Notes under the pieces: model-generated | The model's input: the letters and a program-made list of their open reading frames with translations, nothing else | The model's database searches: none | What the model was told of the DNA's origin: nothing | Position numbers and translations under genes: made by a program | Part shown: in pieces, positions 1 through 6,176 of the stretch | Layout of the letters: every line of letters begins with the position of its first letter | How positions within the stretch are numbered: the first letter of the stretch is position 1 | From: Bacteroidota bacterium | GTDB lineage: Bacteria > Bacteroidota > Bacteroidia > JABEUT01 | Length of the DNA: 33,363 nt | Assembly: GCA_013285655.1 (NCBI GenBank) | Contig: JABDHI010000026.1 | Coordinates: 4,825-38,187, forward strand | Reading direction: 5' to 3'

Positions 1-2230
1 CAGTAACCGAAGCAGAATTGGTATTGCCCGATAATCCGGTAAGAGGAGCCCAAGTATAAGTTAAGCCAGCCGGAGATACCTTACATACTTTGCCTGCTAC
101 ATTTATAGTAGTACAAGTATTAGGACATAGTTTAATAGTATCTGGTAAGCAAAGAATTGGTAATGGTGCAACTGTAACTGTGCTTGTAGCAGTTGCAGTA
201 CATGTGCCTAAGGTACCTGTAACATTGTAAGTAGAAGTACTAAGTGGAGTTACTGTGGTGCATGCTGTAGTTGCACCGGTGTTCCACACATAAGTGGTTG
301 CACCCTTTGCGCAAATACTTGCACTGTTGCCTAAGCAAATAGTATCAGATGTTGCAGTAACTGTTGGGGTAGGAGCAGTTTTAATGAATGGCTCAATTTT
401 AATTGAACAACCATATACATCACCAACGGTTAGTGTATCGTAACCTACACATAAGTTAGTAGGACTGGCAACAGTTTGTCCGCCCGGTGACCAGCTATAT
501 GTGTAAGGCGCACCATAACCACCAATAGTTACAATAGCAGACCCGGTACAGGTTCCGGCACAAGTAGGCTTGGTAAGATAAGTATAAGTAGGGCCAGGGT
601 AAATCACAACAGTAATTGTTCCGGATTTAGAGCATCCAGCTTTATTGGTTGCTGTAACCGTGTATGTAGTTGTTTTTGTAGGACACGCAGTAACCGAAGC
701 AGAATTGGTATTGCCCGATAATCCGGTAAGAGGAGCCCAAGTATAAGTTAAGCCAGCCGGAGATACCTTACATACTTTGCCTGCTACATTTATAGTAGTA
801 CAAGTATTAGGACATAATTTAATAGTATCTGGTAAGCAAAGAATTGGTAATGGTGCAACTGTAACTGTGCTTGTGGCAGTTGCAGAACATTTACCCACCG
901 TACCTGTAACCAGGTAAGTGCTTGTGCCCAGAGGGCTAACATTAATACATGCTGTAGTTAAGCCTGTATTCCATGAATAAGTAGTTGCTCCGTTAGCACA
1001 AATTTGAGCTACGCCGCCTTGGCAAATAATCTCTGATGTAACAGTAAGTGTAGGCGAAGGAAGAGTTGCTACCGTTGCTGTTTGGGTAGTTATGCAGCCG
1101 TTCCCATCGGTAACTGATAATGTATAAGTGCCCGGACATAAATTAAAAGCACTGGTTGTTGTGGCACCGCCCGGCGCCCAGCTATACTTAAGCGGACCAT
1201 TACCACCGCTAATAGTAGCCGTAAGCGAACCTGTACATGAATTGGCACAAGTAGGTTTACTGGTAATGGCAATTGTAGGATTAGGATACACATATATTAC
1301 TACCTTTTTACTGGTAGCACACCATGTAGTATTATTAGTAGCTGTTAAGGTGTATGTAGTTGTTTTGGTTGGGCATGCAGAAACCACCGATGAAAGTAAA
1401 TTGCCTGTTAAGCCGGATGTAGGAGCCCAGCTATAGGTTATGCCATTCACAGGTCCGTTGCATGTGCCACTGAGTGAGGCGCAGGTATGCGGGCATATTT
1501 TTACGGTATCAGGTAAGCAAAGAGTTGGTAATGGTTCTACAGTAACTGTGCTTGTAGCGGTTGCTGTACATGTGCCTAAGGTACCGGTAACGTTGTAAGT
1601 TGACGTTGTAAGTGGAGTTACTATTGTACATGCCGTAGTTGCACCCGTGTTCCACACATAAGTGGTTGCACCCTTGGCGCAAATGGTAGCATTGTTGCCT
1701 GCGCAAATAGTATCTGAGGTTGCTGTAACTGTAGGAGTAGGAGCCGTTTTAACATACGGCTCAATTTTAATTGTACAGCCATATACATCAGTAACGGTTA
1801 GTGTATCGTAACCTGCACATAAGTTAGTAGGACTGGCAACAGTTTGTCCGCCGGGTGACCAGCTGTATGTATAAGGTGCACCATAACCACCAATAGTTAC
1901 CGTCGCAGATCCTGTACAAGTTCCTGCGCAAGTAGGTTTGGTAAGATAGGTATAAGTAGGGCTGGGATAGATAATTACAGTAACAGTACCCGTTTTACTG
2001 CAACCCGTAACGGTATTTGTTGCAGTAACAGTATAGGTAGTGTTTTTAATAGGGCAAGCTGTTACAACATATGAGTTTATGTTGCCCGATAAGCCTGTTG
2101 CCGGAGCCCAGCTATATGTTAAACCAACCGATGATGCTTTGCATGCTTCACCTGCTGCATTTAAAGAAGCACATGTATTGGGACACAATTTAATAGTATC
2201 TGGCAAACAAATTGTTGGCGCAGGTAATAC
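1..2230 (-). repeat. Tandem ~229-aa (681-690 bp) three-domain repeat units within the giant repeat protein
   Basis: Same motif recurs at about 1, 688, 1378 and ~2059; 1-~190 is almost identical to 688-~877 (two substitutions noticed). Each unit = Ig-like + 'LCLPDTIKLCPNTC' Ig-like + SprB-like. Confidence 0.9.
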
Positions 2231-5200
2231 GGTAACCGTGCTTGTAGCGGTTGCAGTACATGTGCCTACTGTACCTGTAACCTGGTATGTAGATGTGGTG
2301 ACAGGCGTTACGTTCGTACAAGCTGTTTGTGCATTGTTGCTCCAGGCATATGTAGTTGCACCGTTGGCGCAAATGGCAGCACTTTTGCCGGCACAAATAG
2401 TATCAGATGTAGCTGTAACGGTTGGCGAAGGAATAGTTGTAATAAGAACACCCACTTCGGTTTTACATCCGTGTGTATCGGTAATGGTTAAGGTATCGGT
2501 ACCTGCACATAAGTGTGCTGTATTCGGGCTTGTGCTTGTTTGCCCGTTAGGAGCCCAACTGTAGGTAAATGGCGCTGTGTTGCCCGATACAATAAAGTTA
2601 GCGCCTCCGTTACATTCACCTGCGCAACTGCCGTGGGTTGTGTAAGTATAGGTAGGGCGATTGTATAAGCTAACGGTAGCCGTTGCAACACTCTTACAAA
2701 TTTGTGTGCTACTGGTAACTGTGTATGTAGTTGGTGTAGTAGGGCTTACTGTTATTGAAGATGTTGTATAACCGTTGCTCCAGGTATATGATGAACCGCC
2801 TGTAGCCGTTAAAGTAGCGCTTGTGCCAGGGCAAATAGTTGGAGATGTTACATTTATAACTGGCGGAGCAACAGATGTAGGGGCAGAACCCAGCATGGCT
2901 TTACATCCGTGTGCATCGGTAACAGTTACTACAACCGAACCAGGACATAATCCGGAAACATTTGAGGTTGTTGCACCGGTACTCCAGCTGTAGGTATAAG
3001 GGGCAGTGCCGCCGGTTACTGTAGCAAAAGCAGACCCGTTACAAGCATTGCTGCAAGTAGGTGCTGTGTTTAAACCAACACCCGGGTTCGGTACTACTGT
3101 AACCGTGCTTGTAGCGGTAGCGGTACAAGCACCTAATGTGGCTGTAACATTGTAAGTTGAAGTTGTAAGTGGAGTTACTGTTATACACGCAGTAGTTGCA
3201 CCCGTGTTCCACACATAGGTGGTTGCACCAGCGGCGCACATGGTGGCGCTACTGCCTGCGCAAATAGTATCTGATGCAGCGGTAACCGTAGGCGTAGCAA
3301 GCGCCGGTATAGAAAAAGGAACATCTAGTTTACAGCCATGGGTATCGGTAATAAATACGGTATCGTTACCCTTGCATAAATTGGTGCTGCTTGCCGATGT
3401 GCTTGTTTGCCCGTTTGTTGCCCAGCTATAGGTAAACGGCGAGGTGCTGCCAGATACATTAAAGGTGACAGATCCGTTGCATTCACCGGCGCAAGTACCG
3501 TGGGCCTGATAAGTATAAGTAGGGCGGTTATATAAAGTAACTGTAGCTATAGCCGTATTTGAACATAAACCACTATTGCCTGTAACTGTGTATGAAGTGG
3601 TGGTGGTTGGGCTAACTGTAACAGTTGCAGTTGAATCGCCATTGCTCCACGCATAGCTTGTTGAACCACCGCTTGCTGTAAGTGTGGCGCTTGCGCCCTG
3701 GCAAATAGTAGCAGATGTTACTGATATTTTAGGTGCAGAAATAGGGAGCACTTTAGTGTTCACTTTTACCTGGCATCCATTTGCATCGGTAACAAATACA
3801 GAATATAAGCCTGCACATAAGCCTGTAGCAGATGATGTGGTTGCTCCGCCCGTCCACAGGTATGTATAAGGAGTTGAACCACCTGTTACACTGGCAGTAA
3901 GTGAGCCAACGCAACTATTACTGCAGGTTGGTGTACCTGAAAGAGTAACTGCAGGAACATCTACGGTTATTGTAGTAATGGCTGTTGCTGTACAGCCGCC
4001 AAGTGTTTGAGTAACCGAATATGTTGTAGTTACAGTAGGATTAACTGTTATACTGCTTGTAGTTGCTCCGTTGCTCCACAAATAGGTAGCACCCGTAATA
4101 ACCGAGTCAATGCTTAATGTTGCGGCTGCACCCTTGCAAACCGTTGCAGAAGTGACGTCAATTTTAGGCGATAATGGAGAAAGTATCAATACTGTTTTGG
4201 TAATAGAACATCCATGTGCATCAGTTACCTTAACACTGTCGGTGCCGGCGCATAAGCCGGTGGCCGATGATGTTGTTTGTCCGTTATTCCACAGGTAAGT
4301 GTACGGTGCAGTTCCGCCGGTTACTGTTGCAGTTGCAGTAGCGTTGCACGAACCTGCACAGGTTGCTGTGCTTGAAAGGGCAATTACGGGTGCATCAATG
4401 GTTATGGTACCGGAAGCAGTTTGCTGGCAATTGCCAACCGTTTGTATAACGGTATAAGTAGTAGTTACTGTTGGGCTAACACTTATACTGCTTGCTGTTG
4501 AACCGTTGCTCCATAAATAAGTAGCGCCCTTAACACCCGCGCTAACCGTTAGTGTATTGGTTGCACCGGGGCACGATGTAACTGAGTTAACAGTTATAGC
4601 AGGCATTTGCGCCATGTTAAACGAAATATTGTCGAGCGAAAAATCGCGGCCACCTTCTGCCGGAGCGCCTTGTCCGAAGATCTGGATCTTAGCATGTGTA
4701 ACACCCGCTGGGGCTGTCCAGTTGTAACAAACTTGTGTCCAGCCCGGATAGTTTGGCCCGCATATATAGTCGGAGAAGAATGGTGTGTCGCCGTTTATTT
4801 GCATTGATACTACTGCTCCGCCGTAGCTATTGAATATGTCTGCATTTTCTATCCATGCACTAAATACATAGGTTGCACCCGGTAACACAGGTATGGTTTG
4901 CTGCCATGCCAGGCAGGTGTAGTTTGGTGTATTAAAAGCGGTACCCCAATAGTTAGGGCTGGTGCTGCTACATTTTAAACAATGATTTGAAGGGCAATCT
5001 ATAGCCATGAACCACGAACCGCTTTCGGCAGCATTGTTAAAGCTATAACTGCTTCCAATGCTTTGCGTGATCATGTATATATCTGTGAAATCACCATTGT
5101 TACTAACACCGGCAAGAGGTACTCCTCCAAAATTTTTCCAAAACCTCATATTAGGTGATGATAGTGCGTAGGTATTTATTGGCGCTCCCGGTGCTATGGT

Positions 5201-5782
5201 TGAAGCAACATCCGAACTATCTTGGTAGGTGCCGGCCAATGCCCATGAAGGTACCGTTTCAAAATCGCCGTTGGTAACCAGGTTAGGTCCACATGCGCTT
5301 AAGCCGCAAGTTGGTACGGTGCGGGCTCCGTAGTTTGCTTCATATAAACCAAAATGAGGGGCAGATATATCGCCCTTAGGTAAAAAGCGGACAGCCTTTA
5401 TATAGTAGGTTTGGCCGGTAGCCAGTTTCGATAGTTCAATATCGGGTAAAGTATCGGTTAAATTTATGCTGGTTTTTACTGCCGATTGTACCATGTTGAG
5501 TTTACCACATGAGCCACTATAAACTATAAGAGAGTCAATATGTACGAATGGGGTATCGGCTGCATTAATTGGGGTAGCTATCTCCACATCCATCATCGGC
5601 GAGGTTGCAACAAACGAGAACCATACCGCATTTACGTTTTGCGGGAATGAATAATCTCGGTACGAAGTTGTTTTAATAGTAACATTAGTAGCTCTTGAGC
5701 AATCAACTCCCTGGGCTTTAATTTTTGTGGTAAATAAAGCAATTAGCGATAGAGCGAATAAAGTAATTTTTGTGCCTTTCAT
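1..5782 (-). CDS. Giant secreted SprB/Ig-like (PKD-type) repeat surface protein; 3' end lies beyond the left edge
   Basis: Reverse-strand frame from ATG at 5782 (MKGTKITLFALSLIALFTTKIKAQGVDCSRATNVTIKTTSYRDYSFPQNVNAVWFSFVA...) stays open to base 1; codon phase agrees at both ends. Signal peptide, N-terminal adhesin-like region, then many SprB-like units (e.g. PTCSNACNGSAFATVTGGTAPYTYSWSTGATTSNVSGLCPGSVVVTVTDAHGC) alternating with Ig-like units (SDTICAG..ATTYVWNTGATTACITVTPLTTSTYNVT..CTATATSTVTV). Missing from the ORF track because it is open at the window edge. Confidence 0.93.
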   Translation of the reverse strand, partial: MKGTKITLFALSLIALFTTKIKAQGVDCSRATNVTIKTTSYRDYSFPQNVNAVWFSFVATSPMMDVEIATPINAADTPFVHIDSLIVYSGSCGKLNMVQSAVKTSINLTDTLPDIELSKLATGQTYYIKAVRFLPKGDISAPHFGLYEANYGARTVPTCGLSACGPNLVTNGDFETVPSWALAGTYQDSSDVASTIAPGAPINTYALSSPNMRFWKNFGGVPLAGVSNNGDFTDIYMITQSIGSSYSFNNAAESGSWFMAIDCPSNHCLKCSSTSPNYWGTAFNTPNYTCLAWQQTIPVLPGATYVFSAWIENADIFNSYGGAVVSMQINGDTPFFSDYICGPNYPGWTQVCYNWTAPAGVTHAKIQIFGQGAPAEGGRDFSLDNISFNMAQMPAITVNSVTSCPGATNTLTVSAGVKGATYLWSNGSTASSISVSPTVTTTYTVIQTVGNCQQTASGTITIDAPVIALSSTATCAGSCNATATATVTGGTAPYTYLWNNGQTTSSATGLCAGTDSVKVTDAHGCSITKTVLILSPLSPKIDVTSATVCKGAAATLSIDSVITGATYLWSNGATTSSITVNPTVTTTYSVTQTLGGCTATAITTITVDVPAVTLSGTPTCSNSCVGSLTASVTGGSTPYTYLWTGGATTSSATGLCAGLYSVFVTDANGCQVKVNTKVLPISAPKISVTSATICQGASATLTASGGSTSYAWSNGDSTATVTVSPTTTTSYTVTGNSGLCSNTAIATVTLYNRPTYTYQAHGTCAGECNGSVTFNVSGSTSPFTYSWATNGQTSTSASSTNLCKGNDTVFITDTHGCKLDVPFSIPALATPTVTAASDTICAGSSATMCAAGATTYVWNTGATTACITVTPLTTSTYNVTATLGACTATATSTVTVVPNPGVGLNTAPTCSNACNGSAFATVTGGTAPYTYSWSTGATTSNVSGLCPGSVVVTVTDAHGCKAMLGSAPTSVAPPVINVTSPTICPGTSATLTATGGSSYTWSNGYTTSSITVSPTTPTTYTVTSSTQICKSVATATVSLYNRPTYTYTTHGSCAGECNGGANFIVSGNTAPFTYSWAPNGQTSTSPNTAHLCAGTDTLTITDTHGCKTEVGVLITTIPSPTVTATSDTICAGKSAAICANGATTYAWSNNAQTACTNVTPVTTSTYQVTGTVGTCTATATSTVTVLPAPTICLPDTIKLCPNTCASLNAAGEACKASSVGLTYSWAPATGLSGNINSYVVTACPIKNTTYTVTATNTVTGCSKTGTVTVIIYPSPTYTYLTKPTCAGTCTGSATVTIGGYGAPYTYSWSPGGQTVASPTNLCAGYDTLTVTDVYGCTIKIEPYVKTAPTPTVTATSDTICAGNNATICAKGATTYVWNTGATTACTIVTPLTTSTYNVTGTLGTCTATATSTVTVEPLPTLCLPDTVKICPHTCASLSGTCNGPVNGITYSWAPTSGLTGNLLSSVVSACPTKTTTYTLTATNNTTWCATSKKVVIYVYPNPTIAITSKPTCANSCTGSLTATISGGNGPLKYSWAPGGATTTSAFNLCPGTYTLSVTDGNGCITTQTATVATLPSPTLTVTSEIICQGGVAQICANGATTYSWNTGLTTACINVSPLGTSTYLVTGTVGKCSATATSTVTVAPLPILCLPDTIKLCPNTCTTINVAGKVCKVSPAGLTYTWAPLTGLSGNTNSASVTACPTKTTTYTVTATNKAGCSKSGTITVVIYPGPTYTYLTKPTCAGTCTGSAIVTIGGYGAPYTYSWSPGGQTVASPTNLCVGYDTLTVGDVYGCSIKIEPFIKTAPTPTVTATSDTICLGNSASICAKGATTYVWNTGATTACTTVTPLSTSTYNVTGTLGTCTATATSTVTVAPLPILCLPDTIKLCPNTCTTINVAGKVCKVSPAGLTYTWAPLTGLSGNTNSASVT
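2231..4610 (-). repeat. Tandem ~145-aa (~435 bp) two-domain repeat units (Ig-like + SprB-like) within the giant repeat protein
   Basis: Recurring plus-strand marker 'catccgtgtg(t/c)atcggt' near 2465, 2905, 3335, 3775 and 4208, i.e. about 430-440 bp spacing; translations align as Ig/SprB pairs lacking the LCLPDTIKLCP domain. Confidence 0.8.
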
Positions 5783-5840
5783 GTTGATTTTTAGATGAAT
5801 TAATGCGGTGCGAAGTAACCACTGTGCTTTCAATTGAAGC

Positions 5841-5903
5841 AGCTGCAATGAGTAGTTAACAGGTTGTAATGAGTACTTAACGGGTTTGGATGAGTGGTTA
5901 ACA
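5841..5903. promoter_or_regulatory. Three 21-bp direct repeats upstream of the giant repeat protein gene (candidate activator-binding array)
   Basis: agctgcaatgagtagttaaca / ggttgtaatgagtacttaacg / ggtttggatgagtggttaaca at 5841, 5862 and 5883, exact 21-bp period, 59-121 bp upstream of the ATG at 5782. Confidence 0.7.
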
Positions 5904-6026: not shown

Positions 6027-6176
6027 TGTAGGATCTCTCACTTCGTTCGAGATGACAAAGGCCATTATATAATTAAAACAGAGGGAGGGGGGGGGCGGGC
6101 GAAGCCCGCACCCCCTCCCTCTCCAAAAATGGCGACACTGTCATCTCGAACCGCCGTAGCCGTGAGAGATCCTGCA
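6027..6176. repeat. Nested inverted-repeat (MITE/REP-like) intergenic element with a GC-rich core hairpin
   Basis: Outer arms tgtaggatctctcac / gtgagagatcctgca, second arms cgagatgaca / tgtcatctcg, inner stem gagggaggggggggg-cgggc-gaa-gcccg-caccccctccctc containing a G9 run. Confidence 0.85.

Follow-up and report, generated by a model that had tools for sequence, protein, structure and literature searches.

A giant adhesin gene on the minus strand of a Bacteroidota contig is preceded by three short, evenly spaced direct repeats, which raises the question of what might read them and with what effect on the gene. The window, that is, the whole stretch of 33,363 nucleotides that was analysed, holds the first part of a gene whose product combines SprB repeats (84 bits over 10 stretches) with a C-terminal T9SS sorting domain (Por_Secre_tail, 47.6 bits; TIGR04183, 52.7 bits) and so belongs to the SprB-like T9SS adhesins. 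Upstream of this gene, the minus strand carries three copies of GTTAAsnACTCAT with a period of exactly 21 bp, the stretch 5902-5848 reading GTTAACCACTCAT-N8-GTTAAGTACTCAT-N8-GTTAACTACTCAT (Table 1). Re-reading the sequence bore out the earlier note, which had described a triple direct repeat of exact 21-bp period (spacing 21 + 21 bp) lying 59-121 bp upstream of the adhesin ATG at 5782. The two-unit pattern occurs twice in the window, as overlapping pairs, and in none of 100 dinucleotide shuffles of it; the array upstream of the adhesin gene is not a product of chance.

Table 1. Positions of the adhesin gene, the repeat units and the predicted promoter features in the window.
Feature	Position	Strand	Remarks
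SprB-repeat giant adhesin	2..5782	-	N-terminal 1,927 aa lie in the window; full length 3,400 aa, contig C26
Array unit 1 (distal)	5890..5902	-	GTTAACCACTCAT
Array unit 2	5869..5881	-	GTTAAGTACTCAT; 21 bp from unit 1
Array unit 3 (promoter-proximal)	5848..5860	-	GTTAACTACTCAT; 21 bp from unit 2
Predicted -7 element	5811..5818	-	TTACTTCG; its start is exactly 42 bp from that of unit 3
Expected transcription start	5804..5806	-	inferred from a -7 box at -12 to -5

Across 14 units in six arrays from four species, the near-invariant unit is GTTAAnnACTCATT, while the remainder of the 21 bp is almost free. In almost all LytTR operators, two repeats of 9-11 bp are separated by 11-13 bp (PMC4847170); some have three repeats (PMC11347149), and the usual position is just upstream of the -35 element (PMC6193735). 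The window array, with more than the two direct repeats typical of the class and a period of 21 bp, fits this published geometry, although its conserved unit is longer (about 14 bp, against the 9-bp sites of the earlier note and the classical 9-11 bp). The operators of AgrA, HdrR/BrsR and similar LytTR regulators of Firmicutes likewise have repeats with a period of about 21 bp that closely precede the promoter: gaps in LytTR systems are mostly 12 bp, the sites often stand 10 bp upstream of -35 (PMC6193735), and those of AgrA precede P2 and P3, at around -60 (PMC4227749). The window differs from these systems in its three units, its longer conserved unit and its Bacteroidota-type -7-box promoter. 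Three direct repeats close to this period are found with CoxC (18-21 bp) and RcoM (12-13-bp gaps) (PMC11347149); both are single-protein gas sensors with the repeat TTNNNGCN or TTCNNGCA, unlike the system considered here, and CoxC represses.

The position of the strict arrays relative to the predicted promoter proved to be fixed. The Bacteroidota -7 consensus is TAnnTTTG, with the box at -12 to -5 (PMC9723704), and TTYG corresponds to its end. Counted from the start of the last unit, TTYG lies at exactly +46 bp in each of the six strict arrays (four species) and also at C64, an array found by its repeat alone, which has TATTTTTG at this offset; in the six strict arrays the last unit thus begins 42 bp before a -7-like element, the transcription starts themselves being predicted. 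In a shuffle test that admitted any conserved 4-base window at any offset, such agreement arose in 0 of 5000 trials for the six promoters and in 1 of 5000 for a subset of four. The six promoters are not fully independent, since two pairs among them are homologous. Given a -7 box at -12 to -5, the last unit would occupy about -54 to -42, and no -33 TTTG was seen between it and the -7 box when the sequences were read by eye.

The array is not peculiar to the adhesin locus. The window's own genome (G000; 2.69 Mb, 69% complete) has the strict pattern at the window locus on C26, at C37:5224 and at C52:134, and the reversed control gave no hit; all three arrays lie 65-78 bp before the ATG of a gene with a T9SS tail. 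Two degenerate arrays bring the number beyond the window to four, of which three precede T9SS-tail genes and one a small-membrane-protein/Nramp gene pair. The looser array C37:11241, before another T9SS-tail protein, has three units at 20 and 21 bp, where the spacing in the other, strict arrays is 21 bp, and it is only a probable array because TTYG is absent at +46. The other looser array, C64:9501, precedes a 65-aa membrane-protein-like ORF and an Nramp-family transporter gene (locus 2097-3608), the only one of this genome's targets outside the T9SS proteins. At C52 the array stands before two T9SS-tail genes in a row that look alike (237-4068) and may form one operon. T9SS tails were matched 113 times in this genome, roughly 5% of its genes by our own estimate of gene number, and their presence in four of the five array-led units is therefore far from chance. 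Single units were matched no more often in this genome than in the reversed control. The earlier note had proposed to test the motif for enrichment upstream of SprB/T9SS genes, and in the genome scan the array did recur before genes that are mostly adhesin-like with T9SS tails. Its further proposal of a dedicated adhesin switch held insofar as the adhesin is among the array-led genes, but was too narrow, in that the arrays mark a small regulon and the C64 target is non-secreted.

Eleven members of the genus were compared (those other than G000 being labelled G003-G007, G010 and so on), and four of them carried the pattern at up to two mismatches; relatives of the adhesin are present in G003 and G010, where the array was not found. 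At up to one mismatch the pattern was absent from all 378 other genomes of the class, so that no strict array was seen in other genera. The genus was the sole representative of its order among the genomes compared, and the T9SS and SprB genes of the class are in keeping with Bacteroidia. Hits at C3, C50 and C68 of G006 and at C16 of G007 were rejected as arrays, as they look like short repetitive ACTCAATACTC-type sequence. Were the arrays leftovers of duplicated adhesin promoters or of tandem-repeat slippage, with no regulatory function, one could account for a unit number that ranges from two to three and for the N-terminal paralogy (45% identity) of two of the target adhesins. Yet beyond the array, identity between most pairs of promoters is down to 13-27 of 62 positions (39 in one orthologous pair), and through this divergence the units and the +46 TTYG stay fixed, whereas the spacers between units are not conserved; with unrelated genes among the targets as well, we regard a functionless origin as very improbable.

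A candidate regulator emerged from the neighbourhood of the arrays. In G007 the array is flanked on one side by the stop codon of a response-regulator gene, termed RR-A (Response_reg and LytTR domains), and on the other by a T9SS gene; next to RR-A, and divergent from it, is the gene of a sensor kinase with Reg_prop, Y_Y_Y and His_kinase domains. The same divergent pair is present in G006, where the array is not beside RR-A. In G000, the start of contig C52 encodes the final 34 residues of RR-A (79% identity), immediately followed by the C52 array, and contig C32 starts with the kinase, so that an assembly gap seems to have separated the two genes; G004, too, has its kinase starting at the edge of a contig. 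Two species thus have an array immediately after a LytTR response-regulator gene (G007 with the full gene, G000 with the fragment), which answers the earlier note's call to look for LytTR proteins; owing to contig edges, RR-A was recovered only as its tail in G000 and not in G004.

The kinase itself follows the arrays. Homologues with 51-63% identity to the G007 kinase were found in each of the four genomes with strict arrays and not in the other seven of the genus, a match expected once in 330 if the genomes were independent; gene absences are provisional, as the genomes are 52-99% complete. Identity drops to 36% for the next full-length relative and stands at 54% (within G007) and 46% (in G010) for partial matches. 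As far as they can be placed, the array genomes group together in the regulator tree, and from these sequences the four look like one clade; since they cluster, the co-occurrence of kinase and array may be a single event in one common ancestor.

A different direct-repeat regulator acting two helical turns apart, such as one of the AraC/XylS family, could also be the reader, with the neighbouring LytTR gene coincidental or regulating other things. AraC half-sites can also stand 21 bp apart, the genus has many LytTR paralogues, so that adjacency in two species could be luck, and G004 has an array where RR-A was not found. No other DNA-binding regulator, and no AraC-family gene in particular, was recognised beside the arrays when the neighbouring ORFs were read and some of them searched against family profiles; together with the adjacency of RR-A in two species and the co-occurrence of the kinase in four, this makes an AraC/XylS-type reader unlikely. 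The earlier note's LytTR reading is well supported by the period, the position, the GTTAA core, the -7 phasing, the adjacency of RR-A and the co-occurrence of its kinase.

Even as a LytTR operator, the array might serve repression, or a LytTR paralogue other than RR-A. CoxC is a LytTR repressor whose three repeats overlap -35 (PMC11347149), and G005, which has no RR-A-type kinase, carries a diverged array (TAATAACTCA) that a paralogue may read. The array, however, ends upstream of the -33 position at a promoter with no evident -33 element, an arrangement that suits activation, and searches next to the remaining LytTR paralogues of the genus, with the motif or with generic 21-bp repeats, gave no array, the other hits of the generic search looking like coding or AT-rich sequence. 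We therefore hold repression, or another LytTR reader, to be quite unlikely.

The reading that we consider probable, judging from sequence, is that the array is a LytTR-type operator read by RR-A, which activates the adhesin gene. Phosphorylated RR-A molecules would occupy all three units, in phase along the same face of the DNA, and the gene-proximal unit, at about -54 to -42, would serve to activate RNA polymerase and so turn on the adhesin gene from a promoter that appears to have a -7 element and no evident -33 element. RR-A, encoded beside a divergent sensor kinase with a Reg_prop beta-propeller, Y_Y_Y and a LytS-type His_kinase, would control a small regulon consisting mostly of T9SS surface proteins. 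Comparison with other propeller sensors suggests a glycan as a possible signal. As a LytTR operator, the array is a genus-restricted addition to the known class of direct-repeat operators.

The E. coli systems YpdB and BtsR offer the closest comparison, each pairing a LytTR response regulator with a LytS-type kinase, and the GGCATTTCAT repeats bound by YpdB have a spacing of 21 bp (PMC4847170). Among NCBIfam models RR-A matches BtsR best, at 122.5 bits; this falls short of the cut-off of 246 for the BtsR equivalog (NF008677), and RR-A was rejected as a member. The BtsR motif, which we take to be ACC[GA]CT[CT]A, resembles ACCACTCA in array unit 1, and FIRVHSA of RR-A stands at the LytTR family motif FhRhHRS. 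In contrast to YpdB and BtsR, the kinase here has a beta-propeller sensor, the unit is GTTAAnnACTCATT, and surface proteins take the place of pyruvate-type transporters as targets. In Flavobacterium psychrophilum a SprB adhesin operon is likewise controlled at the promoter level, through sigma-54 and SM5 promoters tested by mutagenesis, in a paper that makes no mention of LytTR (PMC9723704); given those promoters, control through the array would be a different route. Among the titles and abstracts searched, all open access, no LytTR system controlling T9SS adhesins appeared.

How Bacteroidota select which T9SS surface proteins to make is poorly known. With four array-led units containing such proteins against 113 tail matches, the array marks a specific subset, one that comes with a named candidate regulator, sensor and operator. 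We lean, with moderate confidence, towards the broader proposal that a clade-specific beta-propeller (Reg_prop/Y_Y_Y) kinase and its LytTR regulator form a switch for a few T9SS surface proteins, among them giant adhesins, and that this switch works through in-phase 21-bp arrays placed exactly 42 bp ahead of the -7 box. The search pattern, an array with TTYG at +46, predicts further targets.

Several features at or near arrays were also observed. The diverged arrays of G005, on C43 and C42, consist of TTTAATAACTCAA-like units at a 21-bp period before two secreted-protein genes, and by hand count their TTTG seems 6 bp closer than in other species. A one-mismatch array at G004:C11:17996 has TTCG at the right offset, and within roughly 60-90 bp after it comes a strong intrinsic terminator, with no clear ORF; the stretch (locus 1501-1660) had no Rfam match, and a small RNA controlled by the array is possible. 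In the window, upstream of the array, positions 6030-6175 hold a G+C-rich palindromic stretch (GGGCGGGCGAAGCCCGC and flanks) bordered by two oppositely oriented TCTCGAACnnnGTnnnnGAGAGATCCT-like copies, which resembles an intergenic repeat element.
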